Below are positions 17,092-28,385 of a DNA stretch of 37,831 bases, piece after piece. Every line of letters starts with the position of its first letter. The stretch's first letter is position 1. Below the pieces are notes generated by a model, which saw only the letters and a program-made list of their open reading frames with translations, did no database searches and was not told the DNA's origin. Source of the stretch: an uncultured Saprospiraceae bacterium (lineage in GTDB: Bacteria > Bacteroidota > Bacteroidia > Chitinophagales > Saprospiraceae); NCBI GenBank assembly GCA_937944245.1, contig CALDYY010000100.1:1-37831 (forward strand). The letters run 5' to 3'. Made by a program: the position numbers and the translations under genes.

Positions 17092-18486
17092 ATGAAGCAA
17101 CATACAATAAAAAAGTCAGTAACACTTTCTGGAATTGGCTTACATACAGGAATTAAGGTAACTGCTACGCTCTTCCCAGCCCCTGAAAATCACGGTATTA
17201 AATTTAAAAGAATTGATCTAGAAGAACACCCTACCGTAGTAGCTGACGTGGATAGAGTAAGCTCTACCAACCGTTCTACCACCCTTGAAAAGGGCGACGC
17301 TAAAATAGCTACTGTTGAGCATTTGCTGTCCGCACTCATGGGATTAAATGTTGATAATATAATGGTAGAGTTGGATGGTCCCGAAATTCCAATTATGGAC
17401 GGTAGTGCTTTGCCCTTTGTCAACGCTATATTGGAAGTAGGATTAGAAGAACAGCAGGAGGAGCGAGAATACTTCCAAATTGAAGAACCTATTACTTATA
17501 AAGATGAGGAAACAGGAGTAGAGCTATTAGCTATTCCATCAGAAACCTTCCAAATAACGACCATGATTGACTTCGATTCGGAGCTACTTGGTCAGCAATA
17601 TGCCTATTTGGAGGATATTGACCAATATGCCAGAGAAATTGCACCTTGTAGAACTTTTGTCTTTCTGCATGAATTACAACATTTACTAGCGCAGAATCTT
17701 ATCAAGGGTGGTGATTTAGACAACGCCATTGTTATTGCTGACCGTCCAGTAAATCAAGCCAACCTAGATGTTTTAGCAAAGCAACTAGGTAAGTCAAATA
17801 TAACTATTGATAAAGAAGGTATTGTCAATACTACGAGTTTGAAGTTTCAGAATGAACCCGCTCGACATAAATTGCTAGATGTCATTGGTGATATTGCTTT
17901 GGTAGGCAAGCCCATCAAAGGAAGAATAGTGGCTATTAAACCTGGACATACAGCAAATGTTGCCTTTGCTAAACTACTGAAACAACACTATTTGGAACAG
18001 CGAAAACTAAAAGGAAAACCTAAATACGACCCAAATAAGCCTGCAATTTATGATACTGTTCACATTATGAAACTGCTCCCACATAGGCATCCATTTCTTT
18101 TAGTAGATAAAATTATTGAAATAACTGAAAATATGGTCGTAGGAATCAAAAATGTAACTTACGATGAATACTTCTTTAGCGGACACTTTCCAGATAATCC
18201 TGTCTTTCCAGGCGTATTGCAGATGGAAGCACTCGCTCAAGTAGGCGGTGTCTTAGCACTCGCTCAACAGGAAGATGCGGGGAACTGGGATACTTACTTC
18301 GTTAAAATTGACAAAACAAAGTTCAAGCAAAAGGTTTTGCCAGGCGACACTTTAATCCTAAAAATGGAACTAATGGCCCCTATTAGGCGAGGCATTGTGC
18401 AGATGTATGGAACAGCATATGTAGGAAACAAAATCGTCTCAGAAGGTGAACTAACGGCACAAATTGTAAGACGAAAATCAGAATAG
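17092..18486 (+). CDS. lpxC: Bifunctional LpxC deacetylase / FabZ dehydratase fusion
   Basis: The 464-residue protein joins two enzymes. The LpxC half (1-~305) is the zinc deacetylase that commits UDP-3-O-acyl-GlcNAc to lipid A; ligands H77 (TVEHLLSAL), H259 and D263 (ARHKLLDVIGD) and the late H286 (KPGHTANVAF) are present, as is IAPCRTFVF. The FabZ half (~318-464) is the 3-hydroxyacyl-ACP dehydratase, with IMKLLPHRHPFLLVDKI, catalytic H365 (FSGHFPDNPVFPG) and E379 (LQMEALAQ). Fusion of these two is a hallmark of Bacteroidota. It ties lipid A commitment to use of the same hydroxyacyl-ACP pool for membrane lipids. It lies between lpxD and lpxA on the same strand. Confidence 0.97.
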   Translation: MKQHTIKKSVTLSGIGLHTGIKVTATLFPAPENHGIKFKRIDLEEHPTVVADVDRVSSTNRSTTLEKGDAKIATVEHLLSALMGLNVDNIMVELDGPEIPIMDGSALPFVNAILEVGLEEQQEEREYFQIEEPITYKDEETGVELLAIPSETFQITTMIDFDSELLGQQYAYLEDIDQYAREIAPCRTFVFLHELQHLLAQNLIKGGDLDNAIVIADRPVNQANLDVLAKQLGKSNITIDKEGIVNTTSLKFQNEPARHKLLDVIGDIALVGKPIKGRIVAIKPGHTANVAFAKLLKQHYLEQRKLKGKPKYDPNKPAIYDTVHIMKLLPHRHPFLLVDKIIEITENMVVGIKNVTYDEYFFSGHFPDNPVFPGVLQMEALAQVGGVLALAQQEDAGNWDTYFVKIDKTKFKQKVLPGDTLILKMELMAPIRRGIVQMYGTAYVGNKIVSEGELTAQIVRRKSE

Positions 18487-18596
18487 ATAAACAACTATCT
18501 TTTACCATATTTGCACATTAATAGTAATTCACTAGCAGGTTTGAAACAACAACAGTATGAAACAGCACTTCAAACCGTACAAAAATAGCACCATTT

Positions 18597-19409
18597 ATGA
18601 GTAGTGTACATCATCAACTTGCATCTATACACCCTAACGCTAAAATAGGCAGCAATGTAAAAATTGATCCCTTCGTCGTCATTGAAGAAGATGTAGTGAT
18701 TGGTGATAACACCTGGATAGGTCCTCATGCAGTTATAATGAACGGCACACGAATGGGCGAAAACTGCAAAATTTTTCCCGGTGCAGTGCTTGGTGCTATT
18801 CCTCAAGATTTAAAATTCAGTAATGAACCTACTACACTCGAAATTGGCAATAATGTAGTCATTCGAGAATATTGTACCCTAAATATTGGCACAGCAGCCA
18901 ACAAAACAACGATTATCAAGGACAACTGTATGCTCATGGCATATGTGCATGTAGCACATGATTGTGTTATCGAGGAAAATTGTGTATTGGCAAATAACGT
19001 TACCTTAGCAGGACATATTCATATTGGCAAATATGTTATCATAGGCGGCTTAGTAGCAGTACACCAATTCGTTAACATAGGCGACCATGTTTATCTTGGT
19101 GGTGGCTCTTTAGTGAGAAAAGACATTCCACCCTATATCAAAGCAGCACGCGAACCACTTTCCTACGTTGGTATCAACTCAGTAGGATTGAGGCGCAGAG
19201 GTTTCTCTTCAGAACAAGTGAATCAAATACAGGATATTTACAGAATTTTATTTGTAAAAAAAGGATTTAACACTAAAACAGCCATAGAATACATTGAATC
19301 AGAAATATCCCCAAGTCAAGAAAGAGATCGTATTTTGCAATTTGTAAAAAATGCAGATAGAGGCATCATAAGAGGATTTCGCCAACTCAATGGTACTTAT
19401 TTAAGTTAG
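18597..19409 (+). CDS. lpxA: Acyl-ACP--UDP-N-acetylglucosamine O-acyltransferase LpxA
   Basis: This 270-residue left-handed beta-helix acyltransferase performs the first step of lipid A synthesis, moving a hydroxyacyl chain to the 3-OH of UDP-GlcNAc. Hexapeptide repeats fill residues ~10-185; H121 in YVHVAHDCVIEENC corresponds to the catalytic H125 of E. coli. Other family marks are GAVLGAIPQDLKF and VGINSVGLRRRGFS, followed by the C-terminal helical domain (INQIQDIYRILF-like). ATG 18597 follows a 110-base gap after lpxC-fabZ containing CATATTTG (one mismatch to the -7 consensus), so it may have its own promoter. The ABC ATPase gene begins three bases after its stop. Confidence 0.96.
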   Translation: MSSVHHQLASIHPNAKIGSNVKIDPFVVIEEDVVIGDNTWIGPHAVIMNGTRMGENCKIFPGAVLGAIPQDLKFSNEPTTLEIGNNVVIREYCTLNIGTAANKTTIIKDNCMLMAYVHVAHDCVIEENCVLANNVTLAGHIHIGKYVIIGGLVAVHQFVNIGDHVYLGGGSLVRKDIPPYIKAAREPLSYVGINSVGLRRRGFSSEQVNQIQDIYRILFVKKGFNTKTAIEYIESEISPSQERDRILQFVKNADRGIIRGFRQLNGTYLS

Positions 19410-20052: not shown

Positions 20053-21549
20053 TTATAGCCCAACTTTAGCCCCAATTAGGATTTGAAGCGTACTAATTTT
20101 ATCTTGGTTCGGTCCTAAGCCTTTAAAGATGTTAATATTTTGCTGATAGCTAGGCTCTATAAATAAGCTCCAACGCTCATCCAGGTAACGCTCTGCCCCC
20201 ATACCAAAATTAAGCGTATAGAAACTATTTTCCTTGAATGAACCACCACTCATCCATCCATCTTCAAATTGTTTTCTGTTAAGTTTATCTGATTGAGGTT
20301 CAGAGGGTTTTGAAAACTTTGAAAACCTATCGAATTGATGTTTTGTCAGCGTAATTTCTCCTTTTGAAGTTGCCACATTTGTATTGATATAGAGTTGATT
20401 CGCTCCGATTCTTGTAACATCGTAGTTCGCCTGCGTCGCCACATGAATGGCTGCTCCACCCAATGTGTAAACATGCCACTTTTCAGATTGCTTAAACTCA
20501 TACCGCACCTGAACAGGTACTTTAAATGTATTCAATTCAATGTTCCTAAGCCCTTCCACATAATAACCATCTATTGAATTACCAAAGAAAATAGGCACTT
20601 GCTCTGGACTATATTCCTTATGGTTGTAAATTAAACCCGTTTCTATTGCCCATCTTTTCCATTCTACGGCGACACTGAAACCACCCCCATAATCACTAGC
20701 CACCCTAGCATAAGCCGGTAAATTCAACACAGCATCATCTGGAGTATAGATATAATCGCCATTAAGTGCAGCGAACATACCTACCCTAATTTGCTTCTTA
20801 CTTTTATTAGCAGTTATGAGAGGAGAAATTCCCCATAATTTATCGTTAGGAATAGCCGTCCAGTGTTGATGAGCTAAAGCCTCAGGCGTGAACGCAGGCA
20901 TTGATGCAGGCATAACATCAATGTTAGTTACTTTTATTTCGTTAGGTACAATAGCTGCTGGAGCAAGAGGAATCGCTTTTATAGGCAACGCAGACAAATG
21001 AAATAATGTCGTTTCAGTTTTGTCAGTAGTCGATGTGCTATTTATTGAAAGAGTGAAAGTGGTAGTATTAATATTAGCAATAGTGCGTTTTGATGCACTG
21101 TTCGATAATGTCGCATCGTCTGATATCAAAGTATTATCTTTGGATAGAGTAGCGCCTAATTTAGCTTCCAAATCTAAATAGGAAGTGGCTGTTTTTTCTC
21201 CTTTGGATTGAGTTAATTTTTCATACGCAGTTGGTAAACAATGAATACAAGTAAAAATTAAAAGTAGTGCCAACAGTAATTCAATAGATTTGTATTGAAT
21301 CAATTGCTTTCTCAAGGCTGCTTCTTCATCCAGTTTCGTAGCTAGTAATGACCAGTACCAAGATTGATAACTAGGTTCTAAACGCTGCAATTTATACTTT
21401 ACTGCATCATCAAATGCCTTATCTGTTTGAACTTGCTCCTGCTCCATCTTTGATTGCAAAGCCAACCAAGTATTAGATTCATACGGTCGTTCTATATCTT
21501 TTATCTTTCCACCAATTAGGTCATCTAGTTGCTTGTCTTCCATCTTCAT
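20053..21549 (-). CDS. Anti-sigma-like membrane protein with C-terminal outer-membrane-barrel-like region
   Basis: The 498-residue protein overlaps the upstream ECF sigma gene by four bases (ATGA), so the two are translationally coupled. Residues 5-38 and 43-76 are a tandem duplication: DKQLDDLIGGKIKDIE and DKAFDDAVKYKLQRLE start the units, and PYESNTWLALQSKM aligns with SYQSWYWSLLATKL. One hydrophobic helix follows (~89-106, IELLLALLLIFTCIHCL). A Thr/Ser/Asn-rich linker (~120-250) leads to a beta-rich C-terminus (~255-498: MFAALNGDYIYTP, GGGFSVAVEWKRWAIETGLIY, YEFKQSEKWHVYTLGGAA, GMGAERYLDERWSLFIEPSYQQN) like OMP beta-barrel families. The N-terminal unit with conserved Trp is common in Bacteroidota proteins paired with ECF sigmas. 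I infer it holds the sigma factor at the membrane. Confidence 0.72.
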   Translation of the reverse strand: MKMEDKQLDDLIGGKIKDIERPYESNTWLALQSKMEQEQVQTDKAFDDAVKYKLQRLEPSYQSWYWSLLATKLDEEAALRKQLIQYKSIELLLALLLIFTCIHCLPTAYEKLTQSKGEKTATSYLDLEAKLGATLSKDNTLISDDATLSNSASKRTIANINTTTFTLSINSTSTTDKTETTLFHLSALPIKAIPLAPAAIVPNEIKVTNIDVMPASMPAFTPEALAHQHWTAIPNDKLWGISPLITANKSKKQIRVGMFAALNGDYIYTPDDAVLNLPAYARVASDYGGGFSVAVEWKRWAIETGLIYNHKEYSPEQVPIFFGNSIDGYYVEGLRNIELNTFKVPVQVRYEFKQSEKWHVYTLGGAAIHVATQANYDVTRIGANQLYINTNVATSKGEITLTKHQFDRFSKFSKPSEPQSDKLNRKQFEDGWMSGGSFKENSFYTLNFGMGAERYLDERWSLFIEPSYQQNINIFKGLGPNQDKISTLQILIGAKVGL

Positions 21550-22097
21550 TGGTATTTTGATCCTAATAACTCCTTTAATTTCACTCTTGCCTTCACTAGA
21601 TTTGACCGTGAAGTGCTTTCGGTAATGTCCAACGTATCTGCTATTTCTTTGTGCGAATAGCCTTCTATTGCATACAAGTTAAAAACGGTTCTATATACTG
21701 GCGATAGCTGTTGTATTGCCTCTAGTATTTCTTTTTCTGAACATTGACTGATGGCATCAGCATCAAAAGTTTGCACTTCGTGTGCTTGGTCTATATCCTC
21801 TGTCCTTCTTCGCTTTTCTTTTCTATAAGCATCAATACAAGTGTTTACAATGATTCTTCTTAACCAAGCACTGAAAGACGTACCTGCTTGAAACTTACCA
21901 ATGTGCCTAAACACTTTGATAAAACCTTCGTGCAACATATCCAATGCCTCCTCCTCTGAACTAGCGTATCGCAAGCAGACCCCCATCATTTTGCCGTAGT
22001 GTATTTCATACAACTTCTGCTGCGCCCATCTTTCTTCCCGTTTACAAGCGGAAATAAGATGCTCTTCCGTATAGTCAAAAGGCAATGAAATATCCAT
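21546..22097 (-). CDS. ECF-type RNA polymerase sigma factor
   Basis: The 183-residue protein has sigma region 2 (about 15-85: AQQKLYEIHYGKMMGVCLRYA, ALDMLHEGFIKVFRHIGKF, FSAWLRRIIVNTCIDAYRKEKRR) and region 4 (about 120-178: LSPVYRTVFNLYAIEGYSHKEIADTLDITESTSRSNLVKARVKLKEL), with the usual helix-turn-helix for -35 recognition. No region 3 or C-terminal sensor domain is present. It is an alternative sigma factor directing a small envelope regulon. The coupled downstream membrane protein is the likely anti-sigma factor. ECF sigmas commonly control their own promoter; an inverted repeat lies upstream (22151-22180). Confidence 0.95.
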   Translation of the reverse strand: MDISLPFDYTEEHLISACKREERWAQQKLYEIHYGKMMGVCLRYASSEEEALDMLHEGFIKVFRHIGKFQAGTSFSAWLRRIIVNTCIDAYRKEKRRRTEDIDQAHEVQTFDADAISQCSEKEILEAIQQLSPVYRTVFNLYAIEGYSHKEIADTLDITESTSRSNLVKARVKLKELLGSKYQ

Positions 22098-22150: not shown

Positions 22151-22180
22151 AGCAACGATTGAGCAATGACAAACGTTGCT
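22151..22180. promoter_or_regulatory. Inverted repeat upstream of the ECF sigma gene
   Basis: AGCAACG (22151-22157) and CGTTGCT (22174-22180) form a 7-bp inverted repeat with 16 bases between, 54 bases before the sigma gene start on the minus strand. It could be an operator or a hairpin in the leader; no regulator is known. The rest of the 260-base gap (22098-22357) shows no gene. Confidence 0.25.
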
Positions 22181-24403: not shown

Positions 24404-24812
24404 GACTGATGGACGTAAGTTGATTTAGGTAATAATTGGCTTTGAATAGTTTAACTGACAAAGAAAATATATTTACGTCAATTAAAGAAAGATGAATGCA
24501 AAAAATACAAAAGGTATCTATTGAGCACATTAGGTTTTCAATTAACGAGCAAATTCAATTACTTTTTAAAAAATATTTTATTTATTTATTTTAGTAAAAA
24601 ATTGAATTTTCCCACACTCAAAAAATCCAACATCAGCCACCTGTTCGTATCTGAATGCAAACGGCTTACATAGGGCATCTACAAATTTTAAATTTTATAA
24701 CACAGAAAATAAGTACCTCGTACTATCTGATATTCCTATGTTATGACCGAAGCACTTTTGCGTAATCTTGGATAGATTTTGGGGTAACTGTTTTCAAGAA
24801 AATTTATTTAAC
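24404..24812. other. Gene-free divergent intergenic region
   Basis: About 410 bases separate the divergent epimerase and DUF4394 genes. I see no gene. It is A/T rich (24560-24605 especially) and contains CACTTTTG at 24753-24760, one mismatch from the -7 element and 52 bases ahead of ATG 24813. It presumably holds promoters for both directions. Confidence 0.4.
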
Positions 24813-27800
24813 ATGAACCTAAGTTTTACCTGCTGTGGAATGAACAGCTACTGGAGACTCTTTGCGAGTATTTTTTGTTTCTCACTATTCACCCAATCCC
24901 TTTCAGCTCAGTTACTGTATGGCATTTCAGATAACAATTTGATTTCCTTTCAGGCAAGTGCGCCAAATACCATTTTAAATAGCGTACCTGTAACTGGAAT
25001 CGCTAATGGTCAAATGATTGCTGGACTAGACTTTAGACCAAACACGGGTGAACTTTACACATTAGGATATAACATAAACAGTGGAGAGGGACGTTTGTAC
25101 ACACTAAACTTGATGAATGGTACTGCCACACCTATTAGTATGAACAATGTAATGTTGGCAACGGGTATGGAATTTATTGCTTTTGATTTCAACCCAACTG
25201 TGGACAGAATTAGAGTTATGGGTAGCAATGGAGCTAATTTTAGAATGCACCCTACCACAGGTGCCGTAGTAGCTACGGATGGTAACCTTGCCTTTGCCAC
25301 TACTGATGTCAACGCAAATGCAACCCCTTTCATCACTTCATGTGCCTACATCAACAGTTTTGCGGGGGCAGCAAGCACTACACTTTACAATTACGATGGA
25401 AAATTAAATATTTTAACTACTCAAATACCACCAAACAATGGTACGCAAAATACCGTAGGTGCTTCTGGTGTTATGCTTAATAGCAATGATTTAGCCAGCG
25501 ACATGGATATTTTCTTTGACAAGTCAACACAAATGAACATGGCATTCTTTGTTGGCAAAAGAGGTATGCAAAATAACTCCGAACTATTTCGCCTTAATTT
25601 AATGACTGGTGAATTGATAGCAGTTGGTACGATTGGCTCAGGCATTAGCGTAAGCCGCGTTGCTGCTTTTATTGAAGGCTTATCCACCGCACCGTTGATG
25701 GGCAAACTTGTTTATGGTTTGACAACCAACAACAATTTAATCTCTTTTGATGCCAACAACCCAAGTGCTTTGCGCTCTATCACATCTATCTCTGGTGTAG
25801 CATCTGGTCAAGTATTAAATGGATTGGATTTTCGCCCAGCTACTGGACAACTATATAGCTTAGGCTACAATGCAACTACGGGAGAAGCAAGAATATATAC
25901 TATCAACTTAATGACAGGTATGGCAACACCAATAGGTGAAGCAGGTTTCAATATTGGAACGGGTATCAGCCGACTTGGTCTTGATTTTAACCCAACGGTA
26001 GATAGAATCAGATTAACAGGTAATAATGGTGCAAACTTCCGTTTACATCCGGATACAGGAGCATTAGTAGCGACAGATGGCAGTTTAAGATTTGCAAATG
26101 GCGACGTAAATGCAGGCGCAGTACCCAATATCGGACCTGCTGCTTATACCAATAGCTTTATTGGTGCAACCACCACTACTTTGTACAATTACGACCTTTC
26201 ACGCAACATTCTGACCACTCAAATACCACCTAATGACGGTGTATTGAACACGATTGGTATGTCTGGTATTATGGTGAACGAAGCAGATGCAAGCGTTGGT
26301 TTTGATATTGCATTTGATGCTACGTCTCGAATGGAAATGGCTTTTCTTTCTGCTAATACTGGCAATTCAACAGCAGACCAACTATTCACTATTAATTTAG
26401 CCACAGGTGCTACCACGTTAGTAGGCAACATTGGTGCAGCTGTACCTGTAAAAGATATTGCTGTATTGATTGACCGTACTGTGCCTATGCAAATAATGGG
26501 GCAACTGGTGTATGGATTGACTACCAATAATAACTTGGTTAGCTTTGATTCTGAAAATCCAAGATTTATCCGCACGCTTACACCTTTAACAGGAATAGCT
26601 GCTGGTCAAATGGTAATGGGACTTGATTTCCGACCAGCAACAGGTCAACTTTACACACTTGGTTATAACGCCTCTACTGGTGAAGCCCGACTTTATACGG
26701 TTAATCCTATGACAGGAATGGCGATGCCAATTGGCATGGAAAATATTAATTTAGGTGCTAATTTAGGTAGAATCGCATTGGACTTCAACCCAACAGTAGA
26801 TCGTATTCGTGTAACAAGTAGCTCAGGAGGTAACTTCCGATTGCATCCAGATACTGGCGTGTTGGTGGCTACGGACGGTAATTTAGCTTTTGCTACCACC
26901 GATGCAAATGCTGGTAGTATGCCAAGTGTGGTAGCAGGTGCATATACCAATAGCTTTGCAGGTACAACAACGACAACGCTTTATAATATTGAGCGAACAC
27001 TAAACATACTGACAACACAAATACCTCCCAATGATGGAGTATTGAATACTATTGGCTCATTAGGAATTATGTTGAACAGCGAAGACCCTAGTGTTGATTT
27101 TGATATTTTCTACCGTGCCTCAGATTCTTCTAATATTGCTTTGTTGGCAGCTAACATTATGGGCGGCACAACTGATGCGCTTTACAGCGTAGATTTGACA
27201 AGCGGTCGAGCTACGCTTATAGGCAATATTGGGTTTGGGCTTCCACTAAAAAATATTGCTATTGACTTGCGCGGACCAAAATTAGGATTATCCATAATGG
27301 CTGACCCTATTAACTACAAGCAATTTGAGAATGTAACTTACACCGTTACCATTACAAATAGTGGACAAACAGCAGCAACAGGAGTGGTTGTAGCAGCAGG
27401 CATTCCCGAAGGTATGGCACATACTTCAAATGCAGTAACTAAAGGAATGTACAATCTTTTCTTCCAAGAGTGGGAAGTAGGAACATTAGCGGCAGGTGAG
27501 TCCGCAACATTAACTTTAGTGTTGTTCCCATTAGTGAATGTTCCCACAATTACAAACTTTGTACAAGTAATTGCACTTGACCAAACAGACATGGCAAGTA
27601 CGCCAAATAATAACATGACCATGATGCCAAATGAAGATGATGAAGCAGCAGTCACTATTTTTGGAATGCGTGAAGCACCTAAAGGTGGTATTGCAAATCT
27701 TTCCCTTACGGCTATGGCAGGCAATGAAGGTAGATACCGCATTTTTGAACCAATTACTTACACGGTAACGTTGAGCAATGCAGGACCTAATACTGCCTAT

Positions 27801-28385
27801 GAAGTGCAAGTACAAGCGGGATTGCCTGAAGATTTTGCGTTCACCAGCAGCGAAGTTACAATGGGCGAGTATAATGGGTTTTTCCAACGTTGGGATGTTG
27901 ATTCTCTTGCATCAGGAGCTACTGCTACTTTGGAACTTACCGTGTTTCCACTAATCAATGACCGCACTGTAAATAATTTCTTCCAAGTTTTAGCAAGCAA
28001 TCAAACTGACCCTAACAGCACACCAGGCAATGGCGTTTGCTGCATGGCAAATGAAGACGATGAAGCTAATGTAACGATTATGCCAATAATGATGGGAAAT
28101 AATAGCAATACTGGACAAGATTTATTAATCAACAACATCAAATCAGCTACAATTTTCCCTGTTCCTGCTAATAGCGAAGTACAAATACAAATCTCTGCGG
28201 AAGCAGCTCAACAGGATGGTATGTTAATGATTTACAATTCATTGGGTATATTAGTAATGTCTTTGCCTGTTAGTATAAATGAGGGCTTTAACGAATGGTC
28301 AATAGACATTTCTAGACTAGAAAATGGAATTTATTTCATACAAATTCCAGGGAAAAGTGGAATGTTACCACTACTGAAATCGTAA
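24813..28385 (+). CDS. Secreted DUF4394 x3 - DUF11 x2 protein with T9SS sorting domain
   Basis: The protein (1190 residues from this start) begins with a signal peptide whose core is LFASIFCFSLFTQSLSA; ATG 24840 would give a more standard one and is equally possible, whereas a TTG at 24768 is unlikely. Three tandem DUF4394 units of about 265 residues follow, each with YG[IL][ST]xNNxLxSF, GLDFRP[AN]TG[EQ]LY[TS]LGYN, DFNPTVDRIR and a late TTQIPPN[DN]G. Two DUF11-like units come next (~27290-28080: NVTYTVTITNSGQTAATGV, PITYTVTLSNAGPNTAYEV), each ending in MxNEDDEAxVTI. The last ~85 residues are a type A T9SS domain (IFPVPANSEVQIQIS, LENGIYFIQI). It should be displayed or released outside the cell. 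No catalytic residues are evident; adhesion or a structural role is a guess. It is monocistronic with a terminator. Confidence 0.85.
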   Translation: MNLSFTCCGMNSYWRLFASIFCFSLFTQSLSAQLLYGISDNNLISFQASAPNTILNSVPVTGIANGQMIAGLDFRPNTGELYTLGYNINSGEGRLYTLNLMNGTATPISMNNVMLATGMEFIAFDFNPTVDRIRVMGSNGANFRMHPTTGAVVATDGNLAFATTDVNANATPFITSCAYINSFAGAASTTLYNYDGKLNILTTQIPPNNGTQNTVGASGVMLNSNDLASDMDIFFDKSTQMNMAFFVGKRGMQNNSELFRLNLMTGELIAVGTIGSGISVSRVAAFIEGLSTAPLMGKLVYGLTTNNNLISFDANNPSALRSITSISGVASGQVLNGLDFRPATGQLYSLGYNATTGEARIYTINLMTGMATPIGEAGFNIGTGISRLGLDFNPTVDRIRLTGNNGANFRLHPDTGALVATDGSLRFANGDVNAGAVPNIGPAAYTNSFIGATTTTLYNYDLSRNILTTQIPPNDGVLNTIGMSGIMVNEADASVGFDIAFDATSRMEMAFLSANTGNSTADQLFTINLATGATTLVGNIGAAVPVKDIAVLIDRTVPMQIMGQLVYGLTTNNNLVSFDSENPRFIRTLTPLTGIAAGQMVMGLDFRPATGQLYTLGYNASTGEARLYTVNPMTGMAMPIGMENINLGANLGRIALDFNPTVDRIRVTSSSGGNFRLHPDTGVLVATDGNLAFATTDANAGSMPSVVAGAYTNSFAGTTTTTLYNIERTLNILTTQIPPNDGVLNTIGSLGIMLNSEDPSVDFDIFYRASDSSNIALLAANIMGGTTDALYSVDLTSGRATLIGNIGFGLPLKNIAIDLRGPKLGLSIMADPINYKQFENVTYTVTITNSGQTAATGVVVAAGIPEGMAHTSNAVTKGMYNLFFQEWEVGTLAAGESATLTLVLFPLVNVPTITNFVQVIALDQTDMASTPNNNMTMMPNEDDEAAVTIFGMREAPKGGIANLSLTAMAGNEGRYRIFEPITYTVTLSNAGPNTAYEVQVQAGLPEDFAFTSSEVTMGEYNGFFQRWDVDSLASGATATLELTVFPLINDRTVNNFFQVLASNQTDPNSTPGNGVCCMANEDDEANVTIMPIMMGNNSNTGQDLLINNIKSATIFPVPANSEVQIQISAEAAQQDGMLMIYNSLGILVMSLPVSINEGFNEWSIDISRLENGIYFIQIPGKSGMLPLLKS
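24907..27285 (+). repeat. Three ~795-bp tandem DUF4394-coding repeats
   Basis: The tyrosine codon of the YG motif recurs at 24918, 25713 and 26511, giving periods of 795 and 798 bases. Units 2 and 3 are closer to each other (LVYGLTTNNNL in both) than to unit 1 (LLYGISDNNL), suggesting the second duplication is the younger. Confidence 0.8.

Follow-up and report, generated by a model that had tools for sequence, protein, structure and literature searches.

Organization of the gene pair

The window, by which we mean the whole 37,831-nucleotide stretch analysed here, belongs to a 3.8 Mb Saprospiraceae (Bacteroidota) genome and holds a pair of minus-strand genes, both real open reading frames, which overlap by 4 bp in an ATGA at 21546-21549 (Table 1). 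As proposed in the original prediction, the pair couples an extracytoplasmic function (ECF) sigma factor to a partner made as one chain. The first gene product matches TIGR02937 of NCBIfam at 107.5 bits (cut-off 42.9) and the Pfam models Sigma70_r2 and r4_2, and its sequence relatives in the PDB include AlgU, SigH, SigE, SigmaE and SigW. On these relationships it is classed as an ordinary ECF sigma factor; its group placement is a match to general ECF models. Those neighbours that were searched against families are an ABC ATPase, a BioF-like aminotransferase and an epimerase-like enzyme. Two open reading frames close by, of 464 and 270 aa and on the strand opposite to the pair (17092-19409), look by eye like an LpxC-FabZ fusion and an LpxA, respectively. 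In the 1205-aa protein encoded at 24768-28385, the domains recognised are repeated DUF4394, DUF11 and a sorting domain for type IX secretion.

Table 1. Positions of the genes, protein segments and predicted promoter in the window
Feature	Position	Strand	Remarks
ECF sigma factor, 183 aa	21546-22097	minus	region 2, residues 29-97; region 4, residues 123-174
Dma-type anti-sigma candidate, 498 aa	20053-21549	minus	overlaps the sigma gene by 4 bp
Distal Trp motif copy, residues 8-35	21445-21528	minus	scores as first-copy type; helices in the model
Membrane-proximal Trp motif copy, residues 46-73	21331-21414	minus	scores as last-copy type; W66 kept in 147 of 150 homologues
Single membrane helix, about residues 88-105	21235-21288	minus	hydrophobic stretch read from the sequence
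Disordered tether, residues 107-249 (about 143 residues)	20803-21231	minus	low pLDDT
Eight-strand OmpA-type barrel, residues 250-498	20056-20802	minus	model, fold comparison, PF13568
Predicted autoregulatory ECF promoter, AGCAAC-N17-CGTT	22154-22180	minus	boxes 22180-22175 and 22157-22154

A membrane helix, a disordered tether and a predicted barrel

The partner was modelled with AlphaFold2 from 66 sequences (mean pLDDT 73.9, pTM 0.53). Helices are modelled at residues 6-17, 27-56 and, as one long element, 64-104, so that the second Trp motif runs without a break into the membrane helix. The single hydrophobic stretch in the sequence and this modelled helix agree with the one membrane helix claimed at the outset, and among 150 homologues 132 have one hydrophobic segment above threshold, 17 have none and one has two. 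The long linker that was read from the low-complexity composition is borne out as a disordered tether: residues 111 to 250 have block mean pLDDT values of at most 55, and across the 150 homologues the tether measures 116-248 residues.

For the C-terminal part, which had been called barrel-like, the model predicts eight long strands and one short one in residues 253-497, mostly at pLDDT above 90 except for a loop at about 381-430. Fold comparison places it with outer-membrane barrels, namely the solved structures of NspA (Z 16.4, 155 residues, rmsd 3.0), OmpW (Z 15.8), OprF (Z 15.6) and OmpA (1bxw; Z 15.4), and an integrative model of OmpA (Z 17.8, 167 residues, rmsd 2.4). The Pfam model OMP_b-brl_2 (PF13568) matches the same region at 27.1, barely above its cut-off of 27. 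The C-terminal residue of the homologues is mixed (K in 43, L in 39, R in 20, F in 11 and N in 11 of 150), with no clean aromatic end.

A tandem Trp motif at the N-terminus of the partner

The N-terminus carries two copies of a 28-residue Trp-containing motif that are identical at nine of the 28 positions and align with a BLOSUM62 score of 45, as against a mean of -27 for shuffled sequences, none of 20,000 of which reached 45. When all 28-residue segments of the whole partner were compared with one another, the six best-scoring pairs fell on a diagonal of 38 residues; the tandem pair of the original prediction thus stands, with a period of 38 in place of the 34 residues first given. The duplication looks old, since TRF at a score of 30 detected no DNA-level tandem repeat of the motif within the window. 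The partner's N-terminus gave no match in Pfam or NCBIfam, known anti-sigma domains such as the zinc and RseA types included, and a PDB sequence search with residues 1-110 returned no credible relative; nor did the fold-list matches hold a fold relative for it, which we do not read as absence. A model of sigma factor and partner as one chain renders the motifs as helix-loop-helix units and is silent on contacts; fold comparison of that model recovered sigma regions 2 and 4, a result that likewise concerns folds and not contacts.

The motif had been described as one borne by ECF partners, and this holds in other proteins: by eye it is present in all 24 homologues that we read from outside the Saprospiraceae and in three other ECF partners of the same genome (L040, L041 and L045). 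One of these (L041, 1958-2557) is a 199-aa protein without a barrel match that appears by eye to have two N-terminal copies, and another (L040, 1952-3148) is a 398-aa partner with a single motif and an OMP_b-brl_2 match below cut-off.

Distribution of the pair and coupling of its genes

Within the family Saprospiraceae 150 genomes were searched; 135 match the partner at E 1e-3, and 13 of the other 15 match a profile, several of them weakly. The association with an ECF sigma gene is close to constant. In 105 of 110 homologue loci, counting that of the window, such a gene precedes the partner at a distance between -150 and +200 bp, and the five exceptions consist of four loci at a contig edge and one (L086) with a sigma gene 435 bp upstream. 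In a scan with the sigma factor only, whose set shares some contigs with the 110 loci, 79 of the best 80 of 585 relatives have the partner directly downstream, and in the remaining one just 706 bp of contig is left after the sigma gene. The named relatives found with the sigma factor come mostly from metagenome-assembled genomes of Saprospiraceae, Lewinella and Phaeodactylibacter, along with two strains of Membranihabitans marinus. The sigma alignment was used for named genomes because that of the partner is too diverse for such a scan, which with the partner alone found no relative.

Beyond the family, a sample of the phylum gave matches at E 1e-6 in 45 of 296 genomes, 39 of which belong to other families. 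The 24 loci that were read among these all adjoin an ECF sigma gene. Read by eye over the first 110 residues, 23 of these 24 proteins have one motif and one (L238, genome G219) has two; the repeat model at 3 bits finds one motif in 18 and none in the six others, where it is seen by eye. In the sampled genomes, one copy is the common state outside the family, and arrays are mainly a Saprospiraceae trait. Given the two copies of L238, the duplication may have arisen more than once.

A variable array with distinct first and last copies

Copy number was counted in 152 non-redundant homologues, that is, 182 complete sequences minus 30 near-identical ones. At a threshold of at least 5 bits, zero, one, two, three, four and five copies occur in 1, 16, 79, 47, 7 and 2 proteins; the counts depend on the cut-off and become 4, 28, 76, 37, 6 and 1 at 10 bits. 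The single zero at 5 bits is L086, whose open reading frame starts beyond the motifs, and no motif at this threshold lies beyond residue 260 in any of the 152. Successive motifs mostly start 32-49 residues apart, with a mode of 42. Homologues with one copy, which the original prediction proposed to look for, exist in the family as well as outside it, so one copy can suffice. Some of the one-copy counts hide worn further copies; clear cases of a single copy are L100, L117, L118, L122, L129, L204 and L207, in which the motif runs straight into the membrane helix.

For the analyses of conservation, copy type and phylogeny, L086 and the short L095 were left out. On the tree of the sigma factors, at least 38 changes of copy number are needed (146 rows), compared with a mean of 59 after shuffling, and at least 20 against 35 when the 98 rows with confident counts are used. 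Copy number is thus inherited, yet has often changed. A recent gain is seen in L030, where the motif forms a 111-bp tandem repeat at the DNA level with 81% matches.

The aspartate at position 2 and the tryptophan at position 21 of the motif are nearly fixed, at 93% or more in every class of copy, while other positions differ between the first and the last copy of an array. At position 6, 93% of first copies have K or R, where last copies often have an aromatic residue; histidine occupies position 20 in 70% of last and 20% of first copies. A profile built on such differences separates first from last copies with 93% accuracy in held-out halves (range 89-96%), and the two copies of the window, both of which were included in the profile, score on the expected sides. 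Among single copies, whose types are mixed, 4 of 11 resemble last copies, and of the middle copies 16 of 52 do so.

A predicted promoter of the sigma gene and predicted targets

In the window, the predicted promoter lies 56 bp before the sigma start. The heptamer AGGCAGC, with one mismatch allowed, occurs upstream of 108 of 138 sigma genes, where a 7-mer count in simulated sequence leads one to expect 25. The two-box pattern RGCARC-N17-CGTT is present in 90 of the 138 upstream regions, as opposed to 0 or 1 in 20 simulated sets (N17-19), and with a spacer of 16 or 17 it precedes the sigma gene in 101 of the 138 loci, that of the window included; these counts come from the very regions that served to derive the pattern. 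Its layout is that of an ECF promoter and suggests autoregulation. This genome has 24 loci with a sigma domain; the site (ending in CGTT or CGTC) stands before the present sigma gene and at one other of them, L031. The site in the window is also an inverted repeat (AGCAACG ... CGTTGCT, 22151-22180), so the pattern matches both strands there; this symmetry is not part of the consensus. Scans for generic sigma-70 promoters and terminators gave results at chance level.

When 60 genomes were searched with a strict form of the site, 138 matches were obtained, compared with 57 for the reversed pattern, an excess small enough that single sites can be chance; in the genome of the window by itself the corresponding numbers are 17 and 11, which is too noisy to name a regulon. 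Of 110 sites that were read individually, 33 fall outside open reading frames of at least 120 residues and have a start within 220 bp. The genes that follow them comprise seven sigma genes of the same kind, four NodB-type polysaccharide deacetylases (one with a PF01522 match) and two BamA-like proteins (one with a POTRA match), the rest being singletons or doubtful open reading frames. Two sites of this genome (L257 and L259), which may be chance, precede a protein that looks secreted by 14 bp and one that looks multi-helical by 27 bp, the latter without a Pfam match. One genome has two nearly identical copies of the site (G120:C24:28866-28893 and G120:C66:6977-7004).

The two envelope genes were then considered across genomes. 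Upstream of the deacetylase, a site ending in CGTT or CGTC is present in 28 of 59 genomes; that of the window is one of these and has AGCAGC-N17-CGTC. The reading of bamA covered 41 of the 59 genomes with a match, and the site is present in nine of the 41, far upstream in one example (L461) and close to the start in another (L468), and absent in the genome of the window. As controls, neither the reversed pattern nor the antisense strand yielded any site for either gene, and shuffling gave means of 0.36 regions for the deacetylase and 0.2 regions for bamA. When the genomes that were first found through the site are set aside (four for the deacetylase, two for bamA), 24 of 55 and 7 of 39 remain. 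We predict the deacetylase, in about half of the sampled genomes, and bamA, in a minority, as putative targets of the sigma factor. Among 39 genomes, the deacetylase site accompanies a sigma site in 15 of 24 cases and is found in 6 of 15 others, a difference that is not significant (Fisher P 0.20), and the target set hence seems, on these site patterns, to be rewired in places.

A proposed envelope-stress switch

We consider it likely that the pair works as an envelope-stress switch composed of an autoregulated ECF sigma factor and a Dma-type anti-sigma factor. The N-terminal Trp motifs would hold the sigma factor in the cytoplasm, the membrane helix would anchor the chain in the inner membrane, and the disordered tether would cross the periplasm to the C-terminal eight-strand barrel, the predicted fold of which would sit in the outer membrane. 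A disturbance of the outer membrane or of barrel assembly would cause the chain to release the sigma factor, probably by proteolysis. Once free, the sigma factor would transcribe its own operon, by which the anti-sigma factor would be restored, and also envelope genes, for which sites are observed before the NodB-type polysaccharide deacetylase and, in a minority, bamA. We favour envelope stress as the signal because of the toxin data from Phocaeicola vulgatus (see below) together with the deacetylase and bamA sites.

A somewhat unlikely alternative to a monitor of barrel assembly is that the barrel recognises a ligand from outside, for example a glycan or an iron carrier, and acts as its receptor. 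Sensing of glycans at the outer membrane has been proposed by the authors of the work on Dma2 (PMC13088901). Against such a role, the family-searched neighbours include no genes for glycan uptake or TonB-dependent uptake, and the predicted targets are envelope genes.

The repeated motif itself is best understood, we infer, as a variable sigma-binding array. That first and last copies differ in type argues against a simple pair of equal sites; where a protein has two copies, the most likely arrangement would be a clamp in two parts, one of each type, that grips a single sigma factor, and extra copies would most likely tune its strength. That the extra copies instead titrate additional sigma factors, making the array a storage capacity, we regard as unlikely: it would fit the range from one to five copies, the retention of D2 and W21 in all classes and the existence of recent copies like the repeat in L030, but equal sites would have no need of first and last copies that can be told apart so accurately.

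Concerning topology, the original prediction left two arrangements side by side, and the one in which the chain spans the periplasm, with the barrel probably in the outer membrane, is likelier, because the tether is long enough to cross and the modelled fold is that of outer-membrane barrels. It is distinctly improbable that the barrel-like part serves as a periplasmic sensor without ever being inserted into the outer membrane. Such a sensor would accord with an inner-membrane anchor, by sequence, in the place of a leading signal peptide and with a C-terminal residue that is not uniformly aromatic; it is at odds with an eight-strand fold resembling NspA, OmpW and OmpA at Z 15-18, with a tether of at least 116 residues in 150 homologues and with published members described as having an outer-membrane barrel (PMC13088901, PMC9308784). 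The notion that the partner is an activator or an unrelated co-transcribed barrel protein draws on the indirect case for sigma binding in this system and is very improbable in the face of the near-constant pairing with a sigma gene, the conserved Trp motif ahead of the membrane helix and the genetics published for pairs of this design from Bacteroides and Phocaeicola (PMC13088901, PMC9308784).

Within the envelope-stress switch, we tentatively propose a more specific and doubtful version, in which the anti-sigma factor is its own client of the BAM machinery: BamA would have to insert the barrel for the sigma factor to be held, the length of the array would set the threshold, and bamA itself would be a target in some lineages. 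If true, failed outer-membrane assembly would be read out directly by one chain in contact with the outer membrane and the sigma factor alike. With its readable promoter and short list of predicted targets, the pair offers a testable model of how Bacteroidota watch their outer membrane. The array of one to five copies is at the same time a natural series in which the number of binding sites of an anti-sigma factor could be related to the strength of the switch.

Comparison with known systems

In the sigmaE-RseA system of Escherichia coli, RseA reaches no further than the periplasm, and its sensing runs through DegS. The present pair resembles it in combining an ECF sigma factor with a membrane anti-sigma factor, in its predicted autoregulation and in having bamA among the predicted targets; RseA differs in having neither a barrel nor repeats of the Trp motif.

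In Phocaeicola vulgatus, the pair M0N98_03760-61 has an anti-sigma factor predicted to span the periplasm and to end in an outer-membrane barrel; it protects against envelope toxins, one of which raises expression of the sigma gene 33-fold, and Bacteroides fragilis has a similar pair (PMC9308784). The names EcfO and Reo are used in this connection (PMC12596196, PMC13114119). The likeness to the P. vulgatus and B. fragilis pairs thus extends from the large periplasm-spanning anti-sigma factor with its predicted outer-membrane barrel to the response to envelope toxins that we surmise here. The effects reported for the P. vulgatus pair include longer O-antigen and NigD genes, and the available text makes no mention of N-terminal repeats (PMC9308784). 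Many other toxin-response genes in P. vulgatus also respond to bacteroidetocin A, an inhibitor of BamA (PMC9308784); the main text of the bacteroidetocin paper, in the parts available, describes outer-membrane stress and does not name the pair (PMC8546649). A literature search combining Dma1 and BamA returned no results, and neither did one combining Saprospiraceae and anti-sigma.

The Dma (dual membrane-spanning anti-sigma) family of Bacteroides thetaiotaomicron consists of Dma1, Dma2 and Dma3, which act with ECF21-type Das sigma factors (e.g., Dma2 with Das2) and follow a plan of an N-terminal anti-sigma part, a membrane helix, a disordered tether and a C-terminal barrel beside the sigma gene (PMC13088901). 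A wholly new system can therefore be rejected for the window, since the same architecture has been published for these Bacteroides anti-sigma factors (PMC13088901). By architecture we assign the partner to the Dma kind, setting it beside Dma1 and Dma2 as described in print: an anti-sigma N-terminus, one helix, a long tether, a barrel, occurrence in Bacteroidota and adjacency to the sigma gene (Dma3 excepted) are shared. The founding Dma paper is that of Pardue in 2024, on B. thetaiotaomicron. A search by terms in the Dma2 paper (PMC13088901) found no mention of a tandem motif, and the listing and abstracts on tandem anti-sigma domains, a set apart from the founding paper of 2024, contained nothing on it. 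As for outputs, nigD1 mediates the action of Dma1, and glycan loci are altered by Dma2; the targets predicted here are a polysaccharide deacetylase and sometimes bamA. The two-part promoter and its occurrence before these two genes are additions of the present analysis. What appears new in the Saprospiraceae proteins, and sets them apart from the Dma proteins as described in PMC13088901, is the repeated array of one to five Trp motif copies, the first and last of which are of distinct types.
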